This document shows positions 6,448 to 61,642 of a stretch of 61,642 bases of DNA, one piece after another. Both the position numbers and the translations under genes were made by a program. Origin of the DNA: Candidatus Sumerlaeota bacterium (GTDB taxonomy: Bacteria; Sumerlaeota; Sumerlaeia; MWCT01; JAUWMI01); contig JAUWMI010000028.1 in the NCBI GenBank assembly GCA_030613245.1, forward strand, positions 1 to 61,642. Direction: 5' to 3'. Numbering within the stretch: the first letter of the stretch is position 1; every line of letters begins with the position of its first letter. The notes beneath the pieces are model-generated. The model had not been told where the DNA came from. It made no database searches and worked only from the letters and a program-made list of their open reading frames with translations.

Positions 6448-7386
6448 ATGCAGGAGAAATTCTTAGACATTATTGTATGTCCTTGCTGTAGAGAGTCGCT
6501 TTCTCTCACGAAAAAGAAGATTATTAACGAAGAGATTCTGGAAGGTCTTCTTCATTGTAATAAATGTGGTAATGCTTTTGAAATCACCGAAGGGGTACCC
6601 AGATTAATTCTCAATTTAGAGGAGAGAAAAGAGATCGCCAAGAGCTTTGGTTATCAATGGGAAATGAGAGCAAAGAGTAAATTTGAATCAAATTCACTTC
6701 TTTATGGTGAAACAGAAGAGCAAGAGCTTAAATCTTTTTTTCGATATTTCGGTATAGAACAAGCAGATTTGCAGGGGAAAGTTATTCTGGATGCGGGGTG
6801 CGGATGCGGAAGACTTACAAAGGCTTTAGCTCGATTTGGAAAGGAAATCGTTGGACTCGATATTTCATCTTCAATGGGAACGACCTATCAGACATGTATG
6901 CCCAGCAAGAATATCGCCCTTGTTCAAGCAGATGTTTTGAATCCGCCTTTCCGCAAGGCAACTTTTGATTATGTATGGGCTGAAGATACTATATGCTATG
7001 TAAAGGACGTTCGTAAAGCTTTTGACCTTCTCAGCGATCTGGTTAAACCCTCTGGCAAGCTTTTTGTGCGAGTTCCTTGCATCAATAGAAGTTGCTTTGC
7101 GGTTAAACTCCGGGGGGTATTGGGTTTTACTCATAGAATCCCAAGAAGGCTATTGTTTTGCTTTAGCTATTGCCTGGCCCCCTTTTGGAGCCTGGCCAAA
7201 ATTATGTTGCGAAAAAAAAGGAGCAGCATAAAAAGCAGTGCATTTTTCCTTTTTAACGCCTTTTCACCTGAATTCATAGAATACAAGAGTGAGGAAGAAT
7301 TAATAAACTGGTTCAAGGAAAACCATTTTTCCGATATTGAATTGACCCCTGATAAAGCAATAGCCATCCGCGGAACAAAGACATAA
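6448..7386 (+). CDS. Class I SAM-dependent methyltransferase with N-terminal Trm112-like zinc domain
   Basis: A 312-residue protein. Residues 1-55 form a Trm112p-like zinc ribbon with ligands C11, C14, C37 and C40, ending in the typical TEGVPRLIL. From about 110 a class I methyltransferase follows, with motif I VILDAGCGCGRL (112-123), an acidic residue closing strand 2 (GLDISSS) and a motif-II region around ADVLNPPF. The C-terminal third has hydrophobic patches. The acceptor is unknown; such two-domain proteins are common in surface-glycan and antibiotic-type clusters. The next gene is a close paralogue, and the region is visibly AT-richer than the flanking housekeeping genes, suggesting acquisition as a block. 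Confidence 0.85.
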   Translation: MQEKFLDIIVCPCCRESLSLTKKKIINEEILEGLLHCNKCGNAFEITEGVPRLILNLEERKEIAKSFGYQWEMRAKSKFESNSLLYGETEEQELKSFFRYFGIEQADLQGKVILDAGCGCGRLTKALARFGKEIVGLDISSSMGTTYQTCMPSKNIALVQADVLNPPFRKATFDYVWAEDTICYVKDVRKAFDLLSDLVKPSGKLFVRVPCINRSCFAVKLRGVLGFTHRIPRRLLFCFSYCLAPFWSLAKIMLRKKRSSIKSSAFFLFNAFSPEFIEYKSEEELINWFKENHFSDIELTPDKAIAIRGTKT

Positions 7387-7432
7387 TGAATATTTGAATT
7401 AGTGAAACTTGATCAGGCTAGTTAAACTCATT

Positions 7433-8365
7433 ATGAGGAAAAGACTTACTGAAATCGTATGCTGTCCAAATTGTAAGCAGGAGTTGATATTAAAACATGA
7501 AAAGACGCAAGGTGAGGAAATTGTTGAAGGAAAACTTGAATGCATGAGCTGCCACCATGCATATGAGATTTTTGAGGGTGTTCCTAGAATAATATTGGAT
7601 CTTAAGAAGAGAAAAGAAATCGCTAATCGCTATGGCTTTGAATGGGCAAAAAGAGTTGAAGACAGTTTCGAAAGCGACACGTTATATGGAAAAAGCGAAG
7701 AGGAGGAGCTTGACTATTTTTTCTCTAGCTTTGGAATTCAGCCTTCCGATTTAAATGGTAAAAGCGTCCTTGATGCAGGGTGTGGATGCGGAAGGCTGAC
7801 CAGAATGTTGGGACCTTATTGCAACGAAGTGGTGGGCATGGACATAGCGGCCTCAATTAATAGCGTTTATGATCATTGTAAATGTCAGAACAATATCCAT
7901 ATCCTTCAGGCTGATATATTAAAGTTGCCGTTTCGTACGAACTATTTTGATTTTGTATGGAGCAGTGGCGTTATCTCTTACACTGGAAGCAGTGATGAGG
8001 CTTTTCAAAGCCTTAGTAGCTTGGTGAAGCCACACGGAAAGCTATTTGTGCGTGTTTTTTCTAATTCAAACTTGACTGCTGCAGAGAGATTAAAAAAAAT
8101 CTTCTGGTTTTCGCACAAAGTTCCCAAAGAGGCCCTATTTTATCTTTGCTATTTACTAGCAATTCCTTGGAGCATTACCAAATATTTATTTGATAAACGA
8201 CATAAGTCGCTGAAGACGAACGCGTTTCATTTGTTTGACACGTTAGCCCACCCTTTTACTCGTCACTCGGAGGAGGAGGTAAAGAGCTGGTTCAAACGAG
8301 AAGGATTTTCTGTCATTATGAGTCGCGATGAAGGTGGTGTCTCAGTAAGCGGGATCAAGGAATAA
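7433..8365 (+). CDS. Second zinc-finger class I SAM methyltransferase (paralogue of 6448-7386)
   Basis: A 310-residue paralogue of the preceding gene, with the same zinc ligands (C11, C14, C37, C40), the FEGVPRIIL linker and motif I VLDAGCGCGRL. I place the start at ATG 7433 because it aligns residue for residue with the upstream protein; a TTG at 7409 would add eight residues that the paralogue lacks. The gap to the upstream gene is 46 bases, consistent with one transcript. The duplication suggests two sequential methylations or two acceptor positions on the product of this cluster. Confidence 0.85.
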   Translation: MRKRLTEIVCCPNCKQELILKHEKTQGEEIVEGKLECMSCHHAYEIFEGVPRIILDLKKRKEIANRYGFEWAKRVEDSFESDTLYGKSEEEELDYFFSSFGIQPSDLNGKSVLDAGCGCGRLTRMLGPYCNEVVGMDIAASINSVYDHCKCQNNIHILQADILKLPFRTNYFDFVWSSGVISYTGSSDEAFQSLSSLVKPHGKLFVRVFSNSNLTAAERLKKIFWFSHKVPKEALFYLCYLLAIPWSITKYLFDKRHKSLKTNAFHLFDTLAHPFTRHSEEEVKSWFKREGFSVIMSRDEGGVSVSGIKE

Positions 8366-8413
8366 CCATTGATTCTGTTATTCTGACAACAAATCAAGCA
8401 TCATTTGAAAACA

Positions 8414-9487
8414 ATGCAGCGCAATTCTAGAGTTAAAATAATAGACCCATCAAAGGACGAACGTTGGGATAACTTTATTTCGCAGCAGGAGTATTCGACC
8501 GTTTATCATCACTCTGTATGGAAAGAGCTTCTTCAAAATACCTTTGGGCACATAGAATCCCTTCACTTCGTTCTTGAGGATGCTGAAAACAATATAGTCG
8601 GCGGAATTCCTCTCTTCCTGGTAAAAAGCTGGCTGACAGGAAATAGATTGGTTTCAGTTCCATTTGCGTCGGTATGCAAACCCCTGGTTTCAGGATTGGA
8701 GGACCTTGAAGCACTTACAGAAGCCATGATTGAAAAACTGAGTGAATACAAATGTTCCTATCTAGAGCTAAGAACGAGGGACGACCATCCGTTCTGGGTT
8801 GTGAATAAATTCAAAGAAATATGCCAATTCAAAGGTCATATGTTAGCATTAAATAAAGACCGGGATACTTTGCTAAAATCATTTCATAAGACATCTATTC
8901 AGCAAAGAATTAAAAGGGCAGAAAGGGAGGGGTTAAGAGCTAGGATAGCTTCCTCCGAAAATGACCTGAAGGCCTTTTATCGTCTTCTTACATTCTTGCG
9001 GCTTAAGAAAATAGGATTGCCGCCTCCTCCTTACAAATTATTTAAAAATATGTGGGAAATCTTGAGACCTAAAAATATGCTTGTATTGCATCTAATAGAA
9101 TATGAGAAAAAAGTAATTGCCGGAATGCTGGTGTTTAAGTTCAACCAAATTGCCATATCAGAGCATTCGGCCACAGAGGGCCAATACCTGAAGAAATGTC
9201 CTGACCAACTTTTGTGGTGGAAGGCTATAGAATCAGCGCAAAAGGATGGATATAAATCCTTTGATTTTGGAAGAGTATCCATGGACAACAAGGGCCTACT
9301 TGACTTCAAGCGTAGATGGCAGCCCAGAGAATACAACCTGTTTAACTTGTATTTTCCTGAAGCAAAAGGAGTGTATTCTTCAAATAAGGAAGGCCTAAAA
9401 TACACATTAATGAATATGGCATGGCGTCACATGCCTGTGCCCATTGCAAGAATCGGAGGGCACTTTTTATACAAGCATTTGGGGTAA
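8414..9487 (+). CDS. FemAB-like GNAT-fold aminoacyl/acyl transferase
   Basis: A 357-residue protein of the FemAB / Acetyltransf_6 type. The first half has the YHHSVWKELL..TFG block, the middle the basic helix FHKTSIQQRIKRAEREGL, and the end a GNAT-like core with YKSFDFGRVSMDNKGLLDFKRRW. Known relatives add amino acids to peptidoglycan or act in exopolysaccharide (XrtA/PEP-CTERM-associated) systems; here the substrate is unknown. ATG 8414 is chosen over TTG 8405, which adds only three residues. A paralogue (11247-12299) lies on the other side of the carbamoyltransferase. The stop overlaps the ribosome-binding region of the next gene, suggesting coupled translation. Confidence 0.82.
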   Translation: MQRNSRVKIIDPSKDERWDNFISQQEYSTVYHHSVWKELLQNTFGHIESLHFVLEDAENNIVGGIPLFLVKSWLTGNRLVSVPFASVCKPLVSGLEDLEALTEAMIEKLSEYKCSYLELRTRDDHPFWVVNKFKEICQFKGHMLALNKDRDTLLKSFHKTSIQQRIKRAEREGLRARIASSENDLKAFYRLLTFLRLKKIGLPPPPYKLFKNMWEILRPKNMLVLHLIEYEKKVIAGMLVFKFNQIAISEHSATEGQYLKKCPDQLLWWKAIESAQKDGYKSFDFGRVSMDNKGLLDFKRRWQPREYNLFNLYFPEAKGVYSSNKEGLKYTLMNMAWRHMPVPIARIGGHFLYKHLG

Positions 9488-9493
9488 GTGATA

Positions 9494-11212
9494 ATGAGAA
9501 TACTCGGAATCCATGATGGCCATAATGCTTCGGTTTGTCTGTTAGAAGATGGCCATATTATAAGTGCAATACAGGAAGAGCGGCTCGCAAGAATCAAGAA
9601 TATTATGGGTCTCCCATCTCGAGCCATCAATGCGGTTCTTAAGTCAAGCGGCCTATCGTATGGCGACATTGATTTGATAGCGATGCACTCCAGACATATG
9701 CCAATGATTATCAATAGAGACCAGCTTCTTGAGGAATACGGGCATTCCGATTCAATGAATATGTATCTGAAAAGATTTGTTAAAGGAATGGTAAAGAAGA
9801 CTTTCCTGAAGAAACCTTATTTAGAACATAGACGGAGAGCGCGTGTTCAAGAAATTTTGGAGCAAGGGTTCGACTATGACAAGATTATCTTCGTTGAGCA
9901 TCATTTAGCACATGCAGCTGCGGCCTATTATGGATCGCCATGGAAAGGTAATGAAGAAATTCTGGTGCTTACGAATGATGCCGGTGGTGACTGGTTATGC
10001 GCGACTGTTAATGTAGGCAGAAATAATTCCATCAAGAGAATAGCGGAGATACCAGTCAGCCACTCAGTTGGGTATATCTATTCAATGCTTACATTCATTT
10101 TGGGAATGGTTCCTGAGGAGCATGAATATAAAGTCATGGGCATGGCACCCTATGCCGGTGCGGGCTACACCGAGAAATTTTACGGCGTATTAGATAAGCT
10201 CATAGAGTTCGACAAGTCTACTGGAGGAATAACGTGGTACCGCACAAATGGATGTCCTCATACACAATTCAGTTATAGGTTTTTTAGGCGCTTAACTGAG
10301 CTTCAAAGATTTGATGCAATATGCGGAGGATTGCAAAAGTTTATTGAAGAATTTATCATAACGTGGGTAAGGAATTGCATAGACAAGACGGGAATTCGAA
10401 AGGTTGCGCTGAGTGGCGGGGTGTTTATGAATGTGAAGGCAAACAAGCATATTTTAGAATTGCCAGAGGTTGAATCCCTGTTTGTCCTTCCATCTTGTGG
10501 TGATGAAACGAATGCTATGGGGGCTGCCTACCAGGTTTATGTAGAAGAAATGTCAAAACAAGGTCAGGAAGTAAAGATACCACCATTGAGAGACCTTTAT
10601 TGGGGTTTAGAATTCAAGAATGATGAGATTGAAGAGCTGCTAAAGAGAAAGCACCTGCTCTATGAGCGAAAAGATGATATAGAGAAAGAAATTGCTCTAC
10701 TCTTAAGCCGAGGTGAGATTGTTGCCAGGTTTAAGGGGAGAATGGAATTTGGTGCCAGGGCACTCGGCAACAGGTCGATTCTAGCTGATGCCAGGAATCT
10801 AAGTGTCATTAAGATTATCAATGAAATGATAAAAAACAGGGACTTCTGGATGCCTTTCGCCCCGTCGGTTCTGAAGGAAAGAGAAAATGACTATGTAATA
10901 AATCCAAAAGAAATGAAAGCGCCTTATATGATCATATGTTTTGATTCAACTGATAAAATCGATCACTTGAAAGCAGCATGTCATCCCTATGATAATACCG
11001 TGCGGCCGCAAATAGTTGAAAAAGACTGGGCTCCTGATTATTATCGGTTAATAAAGGAGTTTGAGAAAATCACAGGAGTAGGCGCGCTCTTGAACACTTC
11101 CTTTAACCTTCATGGGTATCCCATTGTTTGTTCACCGGAAGATGCCATTGGCGTCTTCCAGAAATCCGGGCTAAAATACTTAGCTTTAGAGGATTATCTT
11201 GTTAGCAAATAG
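9494..11212 (+). CDS. NodU/CmcH-type carbamoyltransferase
   Basis: A 572-residue protein of normal length for the family. The N-terminal Kae1-like ATPase fold begins GIHDGHNASVCLLEDG and has the metal-site segment EHHLAHAAAAYYGSPW and NDAGGDWL. The C-terminal YrdC-like domain contains FKGRMEFGARALGNRSILAD and ends with the NTSFNLHGYPIVCSPEDA block. Family members transfer carbamoyl from carbamoyl phosphate to hydroxyls of sugars or antibiotics (NodU, CmcH, TobZ). The setting among methyltransferases, FemAB-like proteins and a GT4 enzyme suggests decoration of an exported glycan or a glycosylated small molecule. ATG 9494 is used; GTG 9488 is an alternative two codons upstream. Confidence 0.92.
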   Translation: MRILGIHDGHNASVCLLEDGHIISAIQEERLARIKNIMGLPSRAINAVLKSSGLSYGDIDLIAMHSRHMPMIINRDQLLEEYGHSDSMNMYLKRFVKGMVKKTFLKKPYLEHRRRARVQEILEQGFDYDKIIFVEHHLAHAAAAYYGSPWKGNEEILVLTNDAGGDWLCATVNVGRNNSIKRIAEIPVSHSVGYIYSMLTFILGMVPEEHEYKVMGMAPYAGAGYTEKFYGVLDKLIEFDKSTGGITWYRTNGCPHTQFSYRFFRRLTELQRFDAICGGLQKFIEEFIITWVRNCIDKTGIRKVALSGGVFMNVKANKHILELPEVESLFVLPSCGDETNAMGAAYQVYVEEMSKQGQEVKIPPLRDLYWGLEFKNDEIEELLKRKHLLYERKDDIEKEIALLLSRGEIVARFKGRMEFGARALGNRSILADARNLSVIKIINEMIKNRDFWMPFAPSVLKERENDYVINPKEMKAPYMIICFDSTDKIDHLKAACHPYDNTVRPQIVEKDWAPDYYRLIKEFEKITGVGALLNTSFNLHGYPIVCSPEDAIGVFQKSGLKYLALEDYLVSK

Positions 11213-11246
11213 TTCCTGGGAAAGATAAATTCTGAGGTTTTGAAGT

Positions 11247-12299
11247 ATGAGATTTGAAAACATCGATCCCTCAAAAGATCTAGCATGGGACCGTTTTGTC
11301 CTTGAGAGCCAGCTTGGGTCAATCTATCACCTTTCGTCCTGGAAAGAAGTTATCTCTAAGACTTTTGGGGCTGAGCCATTTTATTTCGTCCTAAGGGATG
11401 AAAATGATTCCATTAGGGCCGGGTTGCCATTCTTTTTTGTAAAAAGTAGATTTACTGGGAAAAGGCTTGTGTCACTTCCTATGGCTTCTTTCTGCGATCC
11501 ATTGATTGATAACACAAGCGCTCTTGATGAACTCTTAAACGTAATCCTTCAGAAGTCTATGGAGTTTGATACTTCATATATTGAGATAAAGACTCTTAAT
11601 GAATTGAAGTTTCTAAATGAAAGAAATTTCAAATGCCATATGGATTATCAAACCCATATCTTGGCTTTAGATATGGATTTGGGCGTTATTGAGAAATCTT
11701 TTCATACTAATGTCAAGCGATGCCTGAAAAAGGCGAAGGGTAATAATGTTATAGTAAGGGAAGCGGCAAATAATGAAGATGTAAAACTATTTTTCAAATT
11801 GCATGTGCTTACGAGGGAAAAACATGGATTATTGCCTCAGCCGTTGAGCTTTTTTAAAAATATGTGGGAGATACTCTATCCAAAGGCGTTGTGCTCATTG
11901 CTGTTGGCAAGCTATGAGAATCGTACTATCGCAGGGGCGTTTTTCTTGAAGTTCAAAGATACCTTCTATTATGAGTATGGCGCCTGGGATGAGAAGTTCC
12001 ATAAACTATATCCAACTCACATTTTGTTATGGGAAGGCATCAAGATAGCTCATGGGGAGAAATACAAATTTTTTGATTTTGGAAGATCATCAGTGGAAAA
12101 TGAAGGGCTTAACGTTTTTAAAGAAAAGTGGGGAGGGCATGCGAAGCATTTATATTACTACTATTACCCTGATATTGGTGGTGTTGCTTTAGCAAAAACG
12201 AATGAGAAGAAATATTCCCTTATCAAACAAGTTAATCGCCACATGCCATCGCCGATTATGGGGATTGTGGGAGGTTACTTATACAAGCACTTCATATGA
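11247..12299 (+). CDS. FemAB-like GNAT-fold transferase, paralogue
   Basis: A 350-residue paralogue of 8414-9487. The shared blocks are IDPSKDLAWDRF at the start, SIYHLSSWKEV, FHTNVKRCLKKAK in the middle and YKFFDFGRSSVENEGLNVFKEKWG near the end, with a common HMPSPIMGIVGGYLYKH tail. Its presence on the far side of the carbamoyltransferase gives a symmetric methyltransferase-methyltransferase-Fem-NodU-Fem-GT4 order. The start ATG 11247 lies 34 bases after the carbamoyltransferase stop. Substrate unknown. Confidence 0.82.
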   Translation: MRFENIDPSKDLAWDRFVLESQLGSIYHLSSWKEVISKTFGAEPFYFVLRDENDSIRAGLPFFFVKSRFTGKRLVSLPMASFCDPLIDNTSALDELLNVILQKSMEFDTSYIEIKTLNELKFLNERNFKCHMDYQTHILALDMDLGVIEKSFHTNVKRCLKKAKGNNVIVREAANNEDVKLFFKLHVLTREKHGLLPQPLSFFKNMWEILYPKALCSLLLASYENRTIAGAFFLKFKDTFYYEYGAWDEKFHKLYPTHILLWEGIKIAHGEKYKFFDFGRSSVENEGLNVFKEKWGGHAKHLYYYYYPDIGGVALAKTNEKKYSLIKQVNRHMPSPIMGIVGGYLYKHFI

Positions 12300-12442
12300 T
12301 TTATGACATACCTATCTAATAATATAAGCGGCTCTTATATGAGAAACGTTGCATTTCCGGTTTTATAAACAGAGAGGCAAAAGGGACTAATAGGTGCAAT
12401 AGATCTTCTTAAGATGTAATTTTAATTGGAGCTTAGTCCAAA

Positions 12443-13618
12443 ATGAACATATGTGTCCTTGCCTGGGCTTTCTATGATTATGATGCTCGCATTAGAAGGG
12501 AAGCAGAGGCTTTAGTTGATAGAGGTGATTCGGTAGACGTAGTTTGCCTAAGGTGGAAAGGCGATAAAAAGCATAATACTGTGCATGGGGCCAACGTATA
12601 TAGAATTACCGAAAGAAAGCTAGAGGAAAAAGGGGCTCTAGATTATCTCGTCGCGGTTTTGAAATTCTTTATTCTATCTTGTTATTGGGTTACGAAGCTT
12701 CATTTCAGGAAGAGATATGATATTATTCATGTCCACTCAGTCCCAGACTTCGAAGTATTTGCTGCGTTAGTACCGAAATTATTGGGAGCTAAGATTATTC
12801 TCGATATCCATGATATTGTCCCAGAATTCTATGCACAGAAATTCTCTGTTAATCAGAACAGTCTCATTGTAAAGGCACTAAAGCTTATAGAAAAGATTAG
12901 TATTAAATTCTCAAATCATGTGATAATAGCAAATGATCTATGGCGGGATAAGTTGATAAAACGCTCCATCCGGGAAGATAAGTGCACGACACTGCTCAAT
13001 TTTCCTGACCCAAAAATCTTTAAGAGAAAAAATCATGTCAAATATAGTAACTTTACTTTGATCTATCATGGACTGTTGGCTAAGCACCAGGGATTAGATA
13101 TTGCGATTAAAGCGGTTAATGTACTTAAAGATGAGATTCCTTTGTTAGAGTTAGTGATTTATGGTAAGGGTCGCGATCAGCAGAGGTTGGGTAACTTGAC
13201 GAAAGAAATGCACTTAGAGGATAGAATCATTTTCAACGATTCGGTTCCTGTAGATCTTATTCCTGATATTATTAGTAAAGCGCATATTGGTGTGGTTCCA
13301 AAGAGAGGGGGAGATTTTTCCGGGGAAGCTTTTAGCACAAAAATATTGGAGTTTATAGCTGTAGGAGTACCAGTAATTGCAGCAAGAAACAGGATTGAAG
13401 AATATTATTTTAACGATTCTCAGATACTGTTTTTTGAGCCAGGCAATGAGGAAGATCTGGCAAAATGTATCTTGGAACTATATAGAAATTCTGCAAAGGG
13501 AGACGCGCTTGTAAAAAAGGCAGATGAATTCTTATCAACATTTAATTGGGAAGTTCATAAGGGTACGTTTTATCGTATAACAGACAATTTGGTGAGAAAA
13601 AACATTAAGAATGAGTGA
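12443..13618 (+). CDS. Glycosyltransferase family 4
   Basis: A 391-residue GT-B protein. The N-terminal domain starts NICVLAWAFYDYDARIRREAEAL, as in GT4 enzymes that bind lipid-linked acceptors, followed by DIIHVHSVPDFEVFAAL and ILDIHDIVPEF. The C-terminal nucleotide-sugar domain has LIYHGLLAKHQGLDIAIKAV and the EAFSTKILEFIAVGVPVIAAR segment that carries the E-x7-E-type donor site. The donor and acceptor cannot be named. It closes the AT-rich modification cluster; the 143-base gap upstream could hold its own promoter. Confidence 0.88.
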   Translation: MNICVLAWAFYDYDARIRREAEALVDRGDSVDVVCLRWKGDKKHNTVHGANVYRITERKLEEKGALDYLVAVLKFFILSCYWVTKLHFRKRYDIIHVHSVPDFEVFAALVPKLLGAKIILDIHDIVPEFYAQKFSVNQNSLIVKALKLIEKISIKFSNHVIIANDLWRDKLIKRSIREDKCTTLLNFPDPKIFKRKNHVKYSNFTLIYHGLLAKHQGLDIAIKAVNVLKDEIPLLELVIYGKGRDQQRLGNLTKEMHLEDRIIFNDSVPVDLIPDIISKAHIGVVPKRGGDFSGEAFSTKILEFIAVGVPVIAARNRIEEYYFNDSQILFFEPGNEEDLAKCILELYRNSAKGDALVKKADEFLSTFNWEVHKGTFYRITDNLVRKNIKNE

Positions 13619-56143: not shown

Positions 56144-56282
56144 ACCCCAGATAAATTTACTATTGCATTAGTTCTATTCTTGACAAATCTGGCAAAATAT
56201 TCAAGATGTGAGGATAGGCAATGATTGTCCCTGTGGAATTCTGCGAATTTCAGAACGGCCTATGAAATTCAAGTCAAACAAG

Positions 56283-56327
56283 AAAATATTTGGACATGAT
56301 TAACAAGATTAACAAGATTACAGAAGA
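56283..56327. repeat. GATTAACAAGATTAACAAGATTACAG repeat, left of the GxxExxY gene
   Basis: An AT-rich repeat (ATATTTGGACATGATTAACA...) also found at 56721-56800 and 58931-59011. Similar sequences often flank GxxExxY genes in my experience; the first copy ends just before that gene. Confidence 0.7.
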
Positions 56328-56336
56328 CGCTCAGTA

Positions 56337-56705
56337 ATGGATATTGATAGACTGACAGAAAAGATAATTGGGTGCGCATACAAAGTCCATAATAGTCTTG
56401 GACCGGGTTTTGTTGAAAAGGTCTATGAAAATGCTTTGCGTATCGACCTGGAGGAGCGTCGACTCAAAGTAAAACAGCAGGAACCTGTTACTGTTTACTA
56501 CCGCGAGCATATTGTTGGAGAGTTTTCCGCGGATCTTATAATTGAGGATCGAATCGTAGTGGAGCTCAAAGCAATACGCAACGTGGCAAAGGAACATGAA
56601 GTTCAACTGGTCAATTATCTTAATGCCACAAAGATCGACCATGGGCTGCTGATAAATTTCGGGTCTTCAGTGGAAGTGAAAAGAAAATTCAGGGAATACG
56701 ATTGA
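56337..56705 (+). CDS. GxxExxY protein (PDDEXK_3 family)
   Basis: A 122-residue protein with the family signature LGPGFVEKVYENAL (G-x-x-E-x-x-Y at residues 24-30 approximately) and the nuclease-like core GEFSADLIIEDRIVVELKAI followed by HEVQLVNYLNATKIDHGLLINFG. The D...ExK spacing is that of a PDDEXK fold. The biological role of this very common family is not settled. It is flanked by copies of one AT-rich repeat on both sides, which suggests the gene moves or spreads with that repeat. It stands directly before the first cassette element. Confidence 0.9.
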   Translation: MDIDRLTEKIIGCAYKVHNSLGPGFVEKVYENALRIDLEERRLKVKQQEPVTVYYREHIVGEFSADLIIEDRIVVELKAIRNVAKEHEVQLVNYLNATKIDHGLLINFGSSVEVKRKFREYD

Positions 56706-56720
56706 AGAGACAAATAGTTT

Positions 56721-56800
56721 TTAATCTTGTGAATCTTGTAAATCCTGTCTAAAAAAATATTTGGACATGATTAACAAGATTTACAGGATGACGGAAAAAG
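56721..56800. repeat. ATCTTGTAAATCCTGTC / GATTTACAGGAT inverted repeat, right of the GxxExxY gene
   Basis: AATCTTGTAAATCCTGTC and GATTAACAAGATTTACAGGA are inverted arms separated by TAAAAAAATATTTGGACAT. It continues straight into cassette element 1. Confidence 0.75.
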
Positions 56801-56808
56801 GGCAAAGC

Positions 56809-56989
56809 GGGGACAGGTTAATTAATAGAGATATTGGGGGGAGCATAAGACGAAGAAATAAGGGAAAGCACGTACACGGGGCGTCCGACCTGCACGAGCC
56901 ATTTCATAGAAAAACTAGAAAGGCTGCCAGGCCGTTGTCTGAAACGACAGAAACCGGGACGAAAAAGGTGAAATACATAACCTGTCCCC
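56809..56989 (+). mobile_element. Cassette element 1
   Basis: GGGGACAGGTTA at the left end and TAACCTGTCCCC at the right end are exact inverted repeats. The interior reads GRPTCTSHFIEKLERLLGR.LKRQKPG in one frame, like the C-terminus of REP-associated-type transposases, but no transposase gene is attached. The element is followed directly by ATGTT. Confidence 0.85.
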
Positions 56990-57032
56990 ATGTTCTCCCT
57001 GATTGCATACACGCAAGCGGGTGCATTTAAAA

Positions 57033-57224
57033 ATGACAATAAAGCGCATAATTCAGTTATTGTTCGCGACTATTTGGTTTCTTTTTGCCTTATTTGTTCT
57101 GATAGCGAGCTCCAAGAATATGACGTTTCATATCTTCATATTTGCATGCGCCACAGTAAACTTATTCATGATTTTGATTGAAAATAAGTTGAAAAAACAG
57201 GGAGACAAAACGGGAACAGGTTAA
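57033..57224 (+). CDS. Cassette 1 gene: small membrane protein
   Basis: A 63-residue protein with two hydrophobic segments (IIQLLFATIWFLFALFVLIA and FHIFIFACATVNLFMILI) and a basic end. The stop codon TAA is made by the first bases of element 2 (ACAGGTTAA). ATG 57033 is taken as the start; upstream in-frame or element-linked ATGs (56990 in another frame, 57003 in this one) are possible. No family recognised. Confidence 0.5.
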   Translation: MTIKRIIQLLFATIWFLFALFVLIASSKNMTFHIFIFACATVNLFMILIENKLKKQGDKTGTG

Positions 57225-57392
57225 TTAATAGAAATATTGGGGGGAGCATAAGACGAAGAAAACAGGGAAAGCACGTACACGGGGCCTGCGACCGGCGCGC
57301 CCCATTTCATAGAAAAACTAGAAAGGCTGCTAGGCCGTTGTCTGAAACGACAGTAACGGGAACGCAAAAGAAGAAATACATAACCTGTCCTC
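57211..57392 (+). mobile_element. Cassette element 2
   Basis: Same layout as element 1; the left end is slightly decayed (CGGGAACAGGTTA) and the right end is TAACCTGTCCTC followed by ATGTT. The interior has the ACCGGCGCGCCCCATTTCAT variant shared with elements 4 and 5. Confidence 0.85.
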
Positions 57393-57420
57393 ATGTTCAC
57401 CGCCATAAATCTATACGAGT

Positions 57421-57837
57421 ATGGGAACAATGAGCAATCTTTTTAAAGTTATGCTGATTGCACTGGCAGCGATTGCTATTTCCTTGGCTATATATTTCCA
57501 CCAGTTGGGAAAAACAGAAATCATTGGAGAGACTATCCTAACGGCCACAAGATATGAGGGGACTATACGTATTTCTGAAAAACGGAATTACTCTAAATAT
57601 AAACACATTCTTGATGATTTTCTTAGGGATTACATAAAGTGGACACTCCAACAAAAGCGCGCAGGTGTTGTTCTCCGTGCTTATATAGCAAAGCGCACTG
57701 TTCGAGGTAGATCTGTTATATTCTATGTTATAATCGGAGGTGGCAATTGGGCGGATCATTTAGAGTTGAAATTCCGCAGGACAAATGGAAAGTGGCAGCT
57801 AAGGAACCAGAAAAAACTGTATACGATAATACGGTAA
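57421..57837 (+). CDS. Cassette 2 gene: membrane-anchored small protein
   Basis: A 138-residue protein with one N-terminal membrane anchor (VMLIALAAIAISLAIYFHQL) and a mixed, basic soluble domain (GETILTATRYEGTIRISEKRNY ... ELKFRRTNGKWQLRNQKKL). The end looks like a beta-strand pair. Unlike the other cassettes it has its own stop before element 3; an RHS-like scrap fills the gap. A second ATG lies three codons downstream. Unknown family. Confidence 0.6.
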   Translation: MGTMSNLFKVMLIALAAIAISLAIYFHQLGKTEIIGETILTATRYEGTIRISEKRNYSKYKHILDDFLRDYIKWTLQQKRAGVVLRAYIAKRTVRGRSVIFYVIIGGGNWADHLELKFRRTNGKWQLRNQKKLYTIIR

Positions 57838-57851
57838 AATATTGATAGATA

Positions 57852-57977
57852 GGGAAATAGGGACAGCTACCTAATTCCCTGTGGTCCAAAAGGTGAAGGG
57901 CGCTGACACCACGCGGTACGTGTATGACGGGCTGAAGGTGGTTTGCCTCAGGCGGAAGCAGGTGAACGGAACAAAGC
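57852..57977 (+). pseudogene. Short inverted-repeat scrap and RHS/YD-repeat relic
   Basis: AGGGAAATAGGGACAGCTAC and AATTCCCTG look like the end of a different small element. Directly after, VKGADTTRYVYDGLKVV can be read in frame, which is a YD repeat of RHS proteins; the frame then runs into element 3. Only about 17 codons remain. Confidence 0.5.
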
Positions 57978-58158
57978 GGGGACAGGTTAATTAATAGAGA
58001 TATTGGGGGGAGCATAAGACGAAGAAATCAGTGAAAGTACGTACACGGGGCGTCCGACCTGCACGAGCCATTTCATAGAAAAACTAGAAAGGCTGCTAGG
58101 CCGTTGTCTGAAACGACAGAAACCGGGACTAAAAAGGGGAAATCCATAACCTGTCCGC
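57978..58158 (+). mobile_element. Cassette element 3
   Basis: GGGGACAGGTTAATTAATAG at the left, TAACCTGTCCGC at the right; the ATG of the next gene starts at the very next base. This element-gene pair recurs as element 6 plus 61161 onward. Confidence 0.88.
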
Positions 58159-58758
58159 ATGTTGCCTAGGATTAAGAGATCAAAAAAATCGGGCTTTTTA
58201 AACAATCGCATGCATAAGCTAATCAAATATTTCATCGCCATGTTGGTGGTTGCTGTTTTATTGTTAGCTATGTCAAGAGTCCTAGTTAGCATTGTGCAAA
58301 AACTCCTTACCTGCGATTACACTATAGCACTTGGAATTAGGAACGATAAGCAAGAGAAATGGTTACTAGCTTTTATGCCCTTTGTTGGAAAGGAAATGAC
58401 GAAGCCTTTGAGAATAAATCTTCCTCCTTTAAAAAACTCTCTCGCAGAGGAAGATTGCTACCGACAATATGTAATAATAACAGGGGCACTGCGCGGAGAA
58501 GTGGTTTGTGTCCGTTTTCATTACCGCATGCCATATAGAAATTTCTTCTTGTTAGTATTAGGTTGGAGAATTGACCCCAGTATTATATCTTTAGACTTGG
58601 ACGATCTGGCTTCTTATTTTAAAACGGAACCTGATTATCAAAAGTTCTTCTTTAACCCTGATTATACAGGTATCGCAGACCTAGATGATTATAAGCCGTT
58701 CGCCACGATCGATTTAAGCGGCCAAAGCGGGGGGGCAAAGTGGGGACAGGTTAAGTAA
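58159..58758 (+). CDS. Cassette 3 gene: membrane-anchored protein, family A copy 1
   Basis: A 199-residue protein. The basic N-terminus (PRIKRSKKSGFLNNR) precedes a membrane anchor (FIAMLVVAVLLLAMSRVLVSIV); the rest is soluble and probably outside the cytoplasm, with LLAFMPFVGKEMTKPLRINLPPL and FLLVLGWRIDPSIISLDLDDLASYF. The last residues (KWGQVK) and stop are encoded by element 4. A start at ATG 58210 directly before the anchor is possible, since no ribosome-binding site precedes 58159. A near-identical gene begins at 61161. Family not recognised. Confidence 0.65.
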   Translation: MLPRIKRSKKSGFLNNRMHKLIKYFIAMLVVAVLLLAMSRVLVSIVQKLLTCDYTIALGIRNDKQEKWLLAFMPFVGKEMTKPLRINLPPLKNSLAEEDCYRQYVIITGALRGEVVCVRFHYRMPYRNFFLLVLGWRIDPSIISLDLDDLASYFKTEPDYQKFFFNPDYTGIADLDDYKPFATIDLSGQSGGAKWGQVK

Positions 58759-58921
58759 TAGAGATATTGGGGGAGCATAAGACGAAGAAATCAGGGAAAG
58801 CATGTACACGGGGCCTGCGACCGGCGCGCCCCATTTCATAGAAAAACTAGAAAGGCTGCCAGGCCGTTGTCTGAAAAGACAGAAACCGGGACGAAAAAGG
58901 GGAAATCCATAACCTGTCCCC
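58742..58921 (+). mobile_element. Cassette element 4
   Basis: GGGGACAGGTTAAGTAATAG to TAACCTGTCCCC, followed by ATGTT. The left end supplies the stop codon of the preceding gene. Confidence 0.88.
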
Positions 58922-58930
58922 ATGTTCACC

Positions 58931-59011
58931 TTTAATCTTATAAATCCTGTCAAAAAACAAAATATTTAGACATGATTAACAAGATTTACAGGATTACAGA
59001 AAAACGTCAGG
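58931..59011. repeat. GxxExxY-type AT-rich repeat inside cassette 4
   Basis: AATCTTATAAATCCTGTC and GATTAACAAGATTTACAGGA match the repeat at 56721-56800. It is followed by a GGATTTCGT...ACGAAATCC hairpin (59015-59041). No GxxExxY gene is attached to this copy. Confidence 0.75.
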
Positions 59012-59101
59012 GATGGATTTCGTAGCCTGTCCACGAAATCCGCCGAAATTGGAAATCGCCCCGATTTTTATTGGAATAACAGCGTTTGTTTACGAATTTA
59101 A

Positions 59102-59707
59102 ATGAAAATGCATCTTGAAAAACAGAGATACCAAAAAGGATCGACAATTCGCATTCTTTATTGGATTTTTGTTTCGGTTTCTTCTGGCATCATTTTGTTG
59201 TTTTTTCTCTATGGCTTTTTCTTTGGTATCCCAGCATTTTTGGATGCTCAGGCAAGAGCAAAATATTATGCCGCTTCTAGAAGCATCGGAGAGGTGATTC
59301 CCGCAATAATGAAATATCAGAAAGAAAAAGGAGTATTCCCTATTTCCCAGAACGCTTTTGACATAACAGACGTATTAAATATTCAACCACCTTCATACAA
59401 AAATGAGCCTGTAAAAATCCTCTATCGATCCGATGGGGAAAGATTCGTTATTGCGTATGACGGGTCTATAGAGCATTACAATGTAAGTGATTCCTTCTTT
59501 TCTGAAGATATTCCTTTAAAACATAATGTTATAGTTGACCTTTATGATCCCACGAATGGATCATCAAGCCCTTCCTGTATGATTATATATGGTGATGCAC
59601 AAGAGAGGAATGAAGAAAATAGTTTTGATAATCTTACTGGATCAATAAAAAGGGAAATCAGAGACAAATATCATGCAGGGGCCAAAGCGGGGGGACAGGT
59701 TAAGTAA
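59102..59707 (+). CDS. Cassette 4 gene: pseudopilin-like protein with altered N-terminus
   Basis: A 201-residue protein. After a membrane segment (ILYWIFVSVSSGIILLFFLYGFFF) comes GIPAFLDAQARAKYYAASRSIGEVIPAIMKYQKEKGVFP, which lines up with the IPNFL.AQ.RAK.......AL..Y....G.YP region of GspG-type pseudopilins, and VDLYDPTNGSSSPSCMIIYGD matches their DPTNG...GD ending. The prepilin peptidase motif (G followed by FTLIE) is absent, so it should stay membrane-anchored. The last residues and stop come from element 5. Confidence 0.65.
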   Translation: MKMHLEKQRYQKGSTIRILYWIFVSVSSGIILLFFLYGFFFGIPAFLDAQARAKYYAASRSIGEVIPAIMKYQKEKGVFPISQNAFDITDVLNIQPPSYKNEPVKILYRSDGERFVIAYDGSIEHYNVSDSFFSEDIPLKHNVIVDLYDPTNGSSSPSCMIIYGDAQERNEENSFDNLTGSIKREIRDKYHAGAKAGGQVK

Positions 59708-59874
59708 TAGAGGAACCGGGGAGGCACAAGAGGGAGAAATCAGGAAGAACACCTACAACACCAGGGCGTCCGACCGGCGCGCCCCATTTCATAGAAAAAC
59801 TAGAAAGGCTGCTAGGCCGTTGTCTGAAACGACAGAAACCGGGGCTAAAAAGGGGAAATACATAACCTGTCCCC
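59691..59874 (+). mobile_element. Cassette element 5
   Basis: GGGGACAGGTTAAGTAATAG to TAACCTGTCCCC; the interior near the left end diverges (GGAACCGGGGAGGCACAAGA). ATG of the next frame follows at 59875. Confidence 0.86.
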
Positions 59875-59898
59875 ATGTTCTGCCCAAAGGATTTTACT

Positions 59899-60993
59899 AT
59901 GATAAAAAAAACTGTTAGATTATGCGCTGTAATCGGTGGAACCGTAGTTTTGTTACTTTTCTTTTTAGCCCACAAGACTAAAGCCGAAATCAACTCTCAG
60001 GTGGGCAAGATTGATGCCGCTGGTATTCTTGAAGAAGTCAGTAGGAAGCGGGCAGCGATTAGGAGCTTAGAGACAGATTTTCTATTTGGGGGTCCCAGTA
60101 ACTCACAGAATACGCTTCACTTGCTATACAAGAAACCCTATAAAGTTCACATTACAGGGTTCAAAGTCACTACGACTGGAGATGAAGTGGAAGTTATCTT
60201 TGTAAAGAACAAAGACCAAAACCTAATATTATCTCAAATCGAGTGTAGCGATGAAAAGATAAAAGCTTACCTTGTTTTCAAGAAAGAACAAAGTCAATTC
60301 GAATCTAGACTAACGCTGAATGAAGTTTTGGAACAAAACCAATTCAAGTATTGTGGAATCGCAATCAAGCACGATACAAAAGACGACATCGTTATTTTAA
60401 CAAATGAAATCCCTGTGACCACTCCTGATGTGACATTTGGCGCTATTTTGAGGGAAACCGATCCTCCTGATGTGAATTATGGCGCTATTTTGAGGGAAAC
60501 CGAATTTTTGACACAGTATTGGCAACGTGGGATCGAGCTCTTTCTTTTAAATCTTTGCCCACGGAACGTTCTAGTTTCTGGGAGCCGCGTAGAAGTAGAA
60601 GGCACTGAACAAGAGAAAGGCAAACAGATTTACATACTCAAAAGTACTGTTGAAACAAAAAATTACGAGGGAAAAAGTGAAGCTCGAATCCTGCGAATGT
60701 GGCTGGATATTGAAGATCAAACTGTTTTTAGAACAGAACTTAATCGTTTTTGTAGGGATGATTCTACGAGTTACACAATAACAGCTGTAGTCAAGCAAAC
60801 TCATGAAATACCAGAAGGAATGGAACTTCCCTCTTGTATAGAGATACAAAATACTGCCAGCCCGACGGAAAGAAAAATTCTCAGTTTACGTAATCTTACA
60901 ATCAACCCACAAATCAGCGATGAGAGATTTTTCATTGATATCGGAGAACAGGAGGACAGGTTATATCTGGGAAAGCGGGGACAGGTTAATTAA
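59899..60993 (+). CDS. Cassette 5 gene: exported protein with LolA-like features
   Basis: A 364-residue protein. The N-terminus (IKKTVRLCAVIGGTVVLLLFFLAHKTKA) is a signal peptide or anchor. GILEEVSRKRAAIRSLETDF and the following beta-rich region (LHLLYKKPYKVHITGF) are reminiscent of LolA-like carriers, as is the later LRMWLDIEDQTVFRTELNRF. A short tandem duplication (DVTFGAILRETD then DVNYGAILRETE, 60428-60502) sits mid-protein. The final residues GQVN and stop are encoded by element 6. The frame is open back to ATG 59875 at the element border, but ATG 59899 gives a normal signal peptide. Confidence 0.65.
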   Translation: MIKKTVRLCAVIGGTVVLLLFFLAHKTKAEINSQVGKIDAAGILEEVSRKRAAIRSLETDFLFGGPSNSQNTLHLLYKKPYKVHITGFKVTTTGDEVEVIFVKNKDQNLILSQIECSDEKIKAYLVFKKEQSQFESRLTLNEVLEQNQFKYCGIAIKHDTKDDIVILTNEIPVTTPDVTFGAILRETDPPDVNYGAILRETEFLTQYWQRGIELFLLNLCPRNVLVSGSRVEVEGTEQEKGKQIYILKSTVETKNYEGKSEARILRMWLDIEDQTVFRTELNRFCRDDSTSYTITAVVKQTHEIPEGMELPSCIEIQNTASPTERKILSLRNLTINPQISDERFFIDIGEQEDRLYLGKRGQVN

Positions 60994-61160
60994 TAGAGAT
61001 ATTTGGGGGAGCATAAGACGAAGAAATCAGGGAAAGCACGTACACGGGGCGTCAGACCGGCACAAGCCGTTTCGTAGAAAAACTAGAAAGGCTGCTAGGC
61101 CGTTGTCTGAAACGACAGAAACCACCGGAACGCAAAAGGCGAAATTCATAACCTGTCGCC
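60977..61160 (+). mobile_element. Cassette element 6
   Basis: GGGGACAGGTTAATTAATAG to TAACCTGTCGCC; ATG follows at 61161. Together with the next gene it repeats the element 3 plus cassette 3 arrangement. Confidence 0.87.
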
Positions 61161-61642
61161 ATGTTGCCTAGGATTAAGAGATCAAAAAAATCGGGCTTTT
61201 TAAACAATCGCATGCATAAGTTAATCAAATATTTCATTGCCATGTTGGTGGTTGGTGTTTTATTGTTAGCTATCTTAAGAGTCCTAGTTAGCCTTGTGCA
61301 AAAAAGCCTTACTGACGATTACACTATAGTACTTAGAATTAGGAACGATAAGCACGAGAAATGGTTACTAGCTTTTATGCCCTTTGTTGGAAAGGAAATG
61401 ACGAAGCCTTTGAGAATAAATATTCCTCCTTTAAAGCACGCTCTCCCAGGGGAAGATTGCTACCGACAATATGAAATAATAACAGGGGCACTGGACCGAG
61501 AAGTGGTTTGTGTCCGTTTTCATTACCGCATGCCGTATAGAAATTTCTTCTTGTTAGTTTTAGGTTGGAGAATTGACCCCAGTATTATATCTTTAGACTT
61601 GGACGATCTGGCTTCTTATTTTAAAACGGAACCTGATTATCA
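61161..61642 (+). CDS. Cassette 6 gene: family A copy 2, cut by the window edge
   Basis: 160 codons are visible and the frame is open to the window edge. It aligns with 58159-58640 over 482 bases without a gap; I count 26 substitutions, about 20 of them changing the residue. The membrane anchor (MLVVGVLLLAILRVLVSLV) and the FMPFVGKEMTKPLRIN and GWRIDPSIISLDLDDL blocks are intact. No stop or indel has arisen, so the copy is probably functional or recent. Confidence 0.7.
   Translation, partial: MLPRIKRSKKSGFLNNRMHKLIKYFIAMLVVGVLLLAILRVLVSLVQKSLTDDYTIVLRIRNDKHEKWLLAFMPFVGKEMTKPLRINIPPLKHALPGEDCYRQYEIITGALDREVVCVRFHYRMPYRNFFLLVLGWRIDPSIISLDLDDLASYFKTEPDY

Follow-up and report, generated by a model that had tools for sequence, protein, structure and literature searches.

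Probable deleted RAYT transposons alternate with single genes in co-oriented, cassette-like arrays of a Sumerlaeota genome

Integrons are the usual example of bacterial storage of single genes as interchangeable cassettes, and their attC sites follow the consensus RYYYAAC...GTTRRRY. Integron arrays and CALINs are built from tandem single-gene units in one orientation with a repeat after each, their site families are array-specific, and CALINs occur without a nearby integrase; the arrays reported here share all of these properties. A second group of related systems comprises RAYT transposases, REPs and REPINs (Nunvar 2010, PMC2817692; Bertels and Rainey 2011, PMC3116915; Quentin 2018, PMC6006769). 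REPINs measure about 70-110 bp, are dispersed and mostly occur as singlets, while ordered clusters consist of tandem REPINs including their flanks (PMC3116915). MITEs and mobile insertion cassettes with a passenger gene form a third group (reviewed in PMC10969869; for an Aeromonas qnrS2 cassette see PMC5444012), in which, as here, transposon-end remnants flank genes devoid of a transposase of their own. Our literature search, which was incomplete and is therefore weak evidence of novelty, retrieved no gene-cassette arrays derived from RAYT elements.

The window, i.e. the whole stretch of 61,642 nucleotides analysed here (contig JAUWMI010000028.1 of a Candidatus Sumerlaeota bacterium, our C59), ends in such an array. 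Six elements of 180-184 bp, all on the plus strand, had been noticed in the first-pass annotation and were found again at 56809, 57212, 57978, 58742, 59691 and 60977. The features of the region are:

56280-56325: R2 repeat, a dispersed imperfect palindrome of ~75 bp, near the GxxExxY gene
56337-56705, plus strand: GxxExxY (PDDEXK_3) gene at the array head (PF13366, E=1.5e-41)
56716-56800, plus strand: a further copy of R2, which forms a second dispersed family besides the element, at the head of the array (genome-wide repeat search)
56809-56989, plus strand: element E1, very probably a deleted RAYT transposon, as are E2 to E6
57003-57224, plus strand: gene A, small membrane protein, 73 codons from TTG, stop inside E2
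57212-57392, plus strand: element E2
57421-57837, plus strand: gene B (138 aa), with a membrane segment at the N-terminus and no match in Pfam
57978-58158, plus strand: element E3
58159-58758, plus strand: gene C (199 aa), with its stop codon in E4
58742-58921, plus strand: element E4, its first 60 bp apparently co-duplicated with gene C
58934-59004, plus strand: internal R2 copy, separating E4 from gene D
59102-59707, plus strand: gene D (201 aa), with an N-terminal membrane anchor and its stop codon in E5
59691-59874, plus strand: element E5, more diverged than any other copy in the window array
59875-60993, plus strand: gene E, 372 aa, exported, stop inside E6
60977-61160, plus strand: element E6
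61161-61642, plus strand: gene C again, truncated where the contig stops, the rest lying on contig C40 (L031)

As had been proposed, the element supplies the stop codon of four of the five complete preceding genes (at 57224, 58758, 59707 and 60993, not at 57837). The ATG noted behind each element indeed lies at the same offset past CCTGTC(N)3 in all six copies; its reading as a general start codon did not hold up, since only some copies place it in the reading frame of the gene and several genes apparently start further in (gene A likely at an ATG near 57035). It is thus a conserved flank. The array also runs past the right edge of the window, as predicted: the final 50 bases are identical to the first 50 of the reverse-complemented contig C40, and across this 50-bp overlap, on which the joining of the two contigs would rest, C40 adds the end of the gene C copy, a seventh element (E7), membrane genes of 148 and 142 aa, two R2 repeats and a convergent gene, at which point the array has ended. 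An Rfam scan of the window returned one tRNA only. The stretch between gene B and E3 (57840-57977) reads DTTRYVYDGLKVV and resembles a piece of an RHS/YD repeat; another array (C22) likewise adjoins an RHS-type gene.

The right half of the element corresponds to the last ~38 codons and the stop of a REP-associated (RAYT/Y1) transposase. In many copies the frame reads GRPTGAPHFIEKLERLLGRCLKRQKPGRKRGNT followed by a stop, which falls within the terminal ATAACCTGTCCCC, and this tail peptide corresponds to the C-termini of PF01797-bearing ORFs in two genomes of the phylum (G032, G009). In G032, locus L080 is a complete transposon of ~800 bp composed of GGGGACAGTCATC, a Y1 gene and GATGACTGTCCCC; its protein shares 54% identity with the element peptide (E=4e-10) and scores 79.3 bits against NCBIfam REP_Tyr_transpos, just under the cut-off of 80. 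The ends of the element match those of this autonomous relative (GGGGACAG...Y1 gene...CTGTCCCC) and include 12-bp inverted repeats (GGGGACAGGTTA...TAACCTGTCCCC), and 26 copies with inverted ends but without transposase coding capacity are present in the genome. Since both the tail peptide and the ends match a complete RAYT transposon, the element is, on sequence grounds, almost certainly an internally deleted, non-autonomous RAYT transposon (MITE). Like REPs and REPINs it would be a non-autonomous derivative of a Y1 locus with inverted ends able to pair, and would need a transposase in trans. It differs from REPINs in that copies measure 181 bp, retain transposase codons and alternate with genes; the alignment contains no GTAG-type foot, and the copies stand in arrays, with no intact singletons, instead of being dispersed. 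MITE-bounded insertion cassettes, in turn, are single units enclosed by two ends, whereas here long arrays run in one direction and neighbouring genes share one element. In another family, RAYT copies of G018 (L095, on C7 and C10) have an internal deletion and keep both N- and C-terminal codons, which represents an independent formation of such elements; G018 was considered as a second example of the system and rejected, having only three tail-bearing copies and no array. Yet another RAYT type (317-343 aa, inverted flanks GACCCC/GGGGTC, about 11 copies in G013) is found in two genomes that belong to the order of the window genome (L069 in G015, L070 in G013).

The first-pass annotation had described the layout as integron-like in form, with different repeats and no integrase in the window, and this description extends to the whole assembly. 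One could still suppose a degenerate integron (CALIN) whose attC sites escaped recognition, as one co-oriented gene per interval followed by a repeat is exactly what a CALIN looks like. However, the element ends read ...GGTTAAKTAAT and ATAACC..., i.e. GTT...AAC, the reverse of the attC order when compared with the consensus, and the repeat encodes a transposase tail; judged by its sequence, the element is not an attC site. No integron integrase was found in the assembly, where all four tyrosine recombinases stay far under the TIGR02249 cut-off (the best reaches 104.7 bits against 265). These data already contradict a CALIN, which we regard as scarcely tenable. Integrons further differ in that the repeat here derives from a deleted RAYT transposon and often provides the stop codon. 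The distance on the 3' side is also less strict than in an integron, several genes being separated from the following element by 16-175 bp.

The element was searched for in the genome's own assembly (4.29 Mb, 96% complete). It yielded 23 matches, or 26 copies when partial ones are counted, and these form eight arrays: C59 with C40 (7 copies), C3 (4), C88 (4), C26 (3), and C56, C97, C69 and C22 with 2 copies each. Orientation is uniform inside each array, for which the chance under random orientation of 26 copies in eight arrays is 2^-18 (3.8e-6). A single gene occupies 16 of the 18 intervals and two genes the other 2, all co-oriented with the element; against a same-strand neighbour background of 0.73, the co-oriented genes alone give p ~0.002 for 20 transitions. 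Several arrays (C88, C56, C69, C22, C40) end where a convergent gene starts, and the last copy is often truncated with its left end kept. The initial suspicion of a cassette-like array beyond random insertion of a small transposon thus stands genome-wide, and neither randomly oriented copies nor copies mostly away from small genes, which would have spoken against it, were encountered. Replication-strand bias was rejected as the cause of co-orientation: the C59, C3 and C40 arrays lie on the GC-skew-positive strand, C88 on the opposite one, so that not all arrays are explained. A role as terminator or promoter was likewise discarded, such sites being fewer than in shuffled sequences and absent from the elements. 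Among 40 genomes of the phylum the element DNA was present in its own genome only, and the exact left-end pattern found no relatives in viral and genome collections (matches at L047 and L048 were chance matches without an element). Since contigs C59, C40 and C3 end in or near arrays, a short-read assembler might have linked unrelated genes through repeat copies, but we hold such an artefact to be very improbable: the copies are 4-20% apart, the intervals span 200-2000 bp, and the eight arrays stand in separate contig contexts, that of C26 in the interior of a 294-kb contig.

How the arrays grew is suggested by the relations among their copies. Element distance is 0.090 within arrays versus 0.188 between them (permutation p=1e-5), and C59 and C3 share one element family. 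The two C22 copies flank one gene and share an internal insertion, which means that local copying involved an element already damaged by then. Gene C occurs twice in the C59-C40 array, and a homolog lies between two elements of array C56; it is the only gene family seen twice in an array setting. Its dN of 0.29 and dS of 1.30 against the C56 homolog mark gene C as a real, constrained gene (an AlphaFold model with pLDDT 40 was left unused). The two gene C copies differ by 2-7%, the elements upstream of them by 9.8%, a distance no smaller than for random pairs (rank 30 of 55), and the downstream elements E4 and E7 differ at 1 of 61 positions in the left 60 bp (1.6%) and by 6.7% beyond; outside there is no similarity. 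Because gene and downstream left 60 bp are alike and the upstream elements are not, the duplicated unit, as read from these alignments, comprises gene C together with the left end, or more, of the element on its 3' side, without the upstream element, and the crossover would have lain inside the downstream element. Mosaic elements are indicated in an 18-copy set, where 109 of 496 site pairs are incompatible and clustered (p=0.0075); the C59/C3 copies by themselves give no significant signal of recombination (p=0.24).

From these observations we favour, at a probability of roughly 0.5, a model in which a gene and its 3' element spread together as a unit, through recombination between elements in direct repeat, so that arrays like those of integrons arise in another way. 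An array would probably be seeded by one element copy landing downstream of a gene, and would grow by direct-repeat units, each a gene with an element at its 3' end. The driver would be homologous recombination between element copies, to which nicking of the Y1 type at their ends may contribute. Elements in direct repeat could loop out and re-insert units in one orientation, leading to an integron-like array without integrase. We infer the mobility of the units, the action of a RecA-type enzyme rather than a missing transposase, and the route by which new genes would enter. Several points count against this model: a single gene family is seen twice, the C59/C3 signal lacks significance, C59 and C40 are joined through a 50-bp overlap, the 3' distances are loose, and the left ends, conserved within arrays as well (p=0.02), would also fit a still-active transposon.

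The main rival is serial insertion, in which a deleted RAYT transposon targets sites just behind genes, in the direction of the gene and near an existing copy; by local hopping at an AAAGC/AATAC target, co-oriented resident genes would gain one copy each and never move. The left flank of the element is indeed a short conserved motif, AAAGC or AATAC/AATGC, of the kind Y1 elements use, elements come after genes and often at or over the stop codon, and array-specific families are compatible with local spread; the two truncated left-end copies outside the arrays (C55, C19) likewise each sit behind one gene and before a following co-oriented one. However, no intact solitary copy exists at other gene ends in the 4.29 Mb, the interval genes are AT-rich and mostly without family matches, unlike their surroundings, and the right flank is also conserved (AT[GAT]TT genome-wide, with exceptions), which insertion would not yield. 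Neither would one expect dead, interrupted copies to be duplicated around a gene as in C22, and the severed gene 3' ends expected beyond the element were not recognised, although this check was not rigorous. We therefore consider serial insertion possible but rather unlikely, and prefer the spread of gene-element units.

The element boundaries raise a further alternative. Left tandem scars made of extra partial copies of 'target+GGG' are present at 9 of 27 left boundaries (background 1.5% per 60 bp), and short tandem duplications occur on the right in 4 of 21 (background 0.65%). Together these scars hint that DNA was broken and rejoined more than once precisely where the elements end, which supports the favoured model as well. 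Conservation between families is highest in the left 12 bp (distance 0.064 versus a mean of 0.21, p=0.005). Scars at exactly two boundaries, a highly conserved left end retained even by truncated last copies, and ends that pair as a 12-bp stem on either strand are what a second cassette system would leave behind, in which a Y1/RAYT-type enzyme, now absent or acting in trans, moves single-stranded circles of gene and element site-specifically. Folding, however, is only weakly better than in shuffles (z -1.8, -2.7). The first-pass annotation had advised looking for a recombinase or Y1 transposase, and the element did prove to be of Y1 (RAYT) lineage, but no transposase with the element's tail is present in the 96% complete assembly, whose three PF01797 genes all lack this tail and are unrelated. 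A cassette system with such a dedicated enzyme appears doubtful to us.

Should recombination among the elements operate as we favour, transposon remnants alone could build a cassette architecture through direct-repeat recombination, and cassette storage would be easier to evolve than thought; current software, which seeks attC and IntI, would miss such arrays. The wider proposition that the arrays constitute an integron-independent cassette system, with deleted RAYT ends serving as recombination sites and genes with their 3' element being stored, duplicated and shuffled at several loci, is put forward tentatively and with low confidence. It would give RAYT remnants a possible role beyond that of dispersed repeats.

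The arrays also point to an unexplored pool of AT-rich, mostly unannotated genes. In the window, interval DNA has 36-43% GC compared with 49% overall. The impression that the intervals carry small membrane or exported genes is borne out in the window array by N-terminal hydrophobic segments and does not extend to other arrays, which contain ARMT1-like, FGE-sulfatase, FG-GAP, RCC1, CHAT-like, Imm11-like and (weakly) GIY-YIG-like genes. Most small interval genes have no family match, gene E resembles LolA_like only weakly and below the cut-off (E=0.0019), and PADLOC returned nothing convincing as regards a defence function of the window genes.

R2 occupies the same islands as the element: 10 of its 11 best genome-wide copies lie in or beside element arrays and the eleventh at the edge of contig C33, and it brackets the arrays C3, C88 and C59-C40 (L027, L028, L031) around GxxExxY genes. 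The genome holds seven of these genes, two of which head arrays (2 of 8); the proteins heading the window array and C88 are 96.6% identical (blastp). The GxxExxY nuclease was considered as the recombinase and dismissed, since 5 of the 7 genomic copies lie elsewhere.

A short motif like W-x-[LF]-[YF](E) closes six proteins of the genome (DWLLY, QWCLYE, NWFFYE and WWLFE, for example), where ~0.3 would be expected from the internal rate; most of the six have a hydrophobic segment at the N-terminus, and a C-terminal sorting signal is possible. They are encoded at L029:9086-10579, L033:7242-8375, L115:5910-6665, L119:542-2809, L122:126-2351 and L128:2468-3133. Elsewhere in the window, an AT-rich block (6448-13618, 38-41% GC) with methyltransferase, GNAT/FemAB-like, carbamoyltransferase and glycosyltransferase genes is, judged by eye, probably a surface-polysaccharide island.
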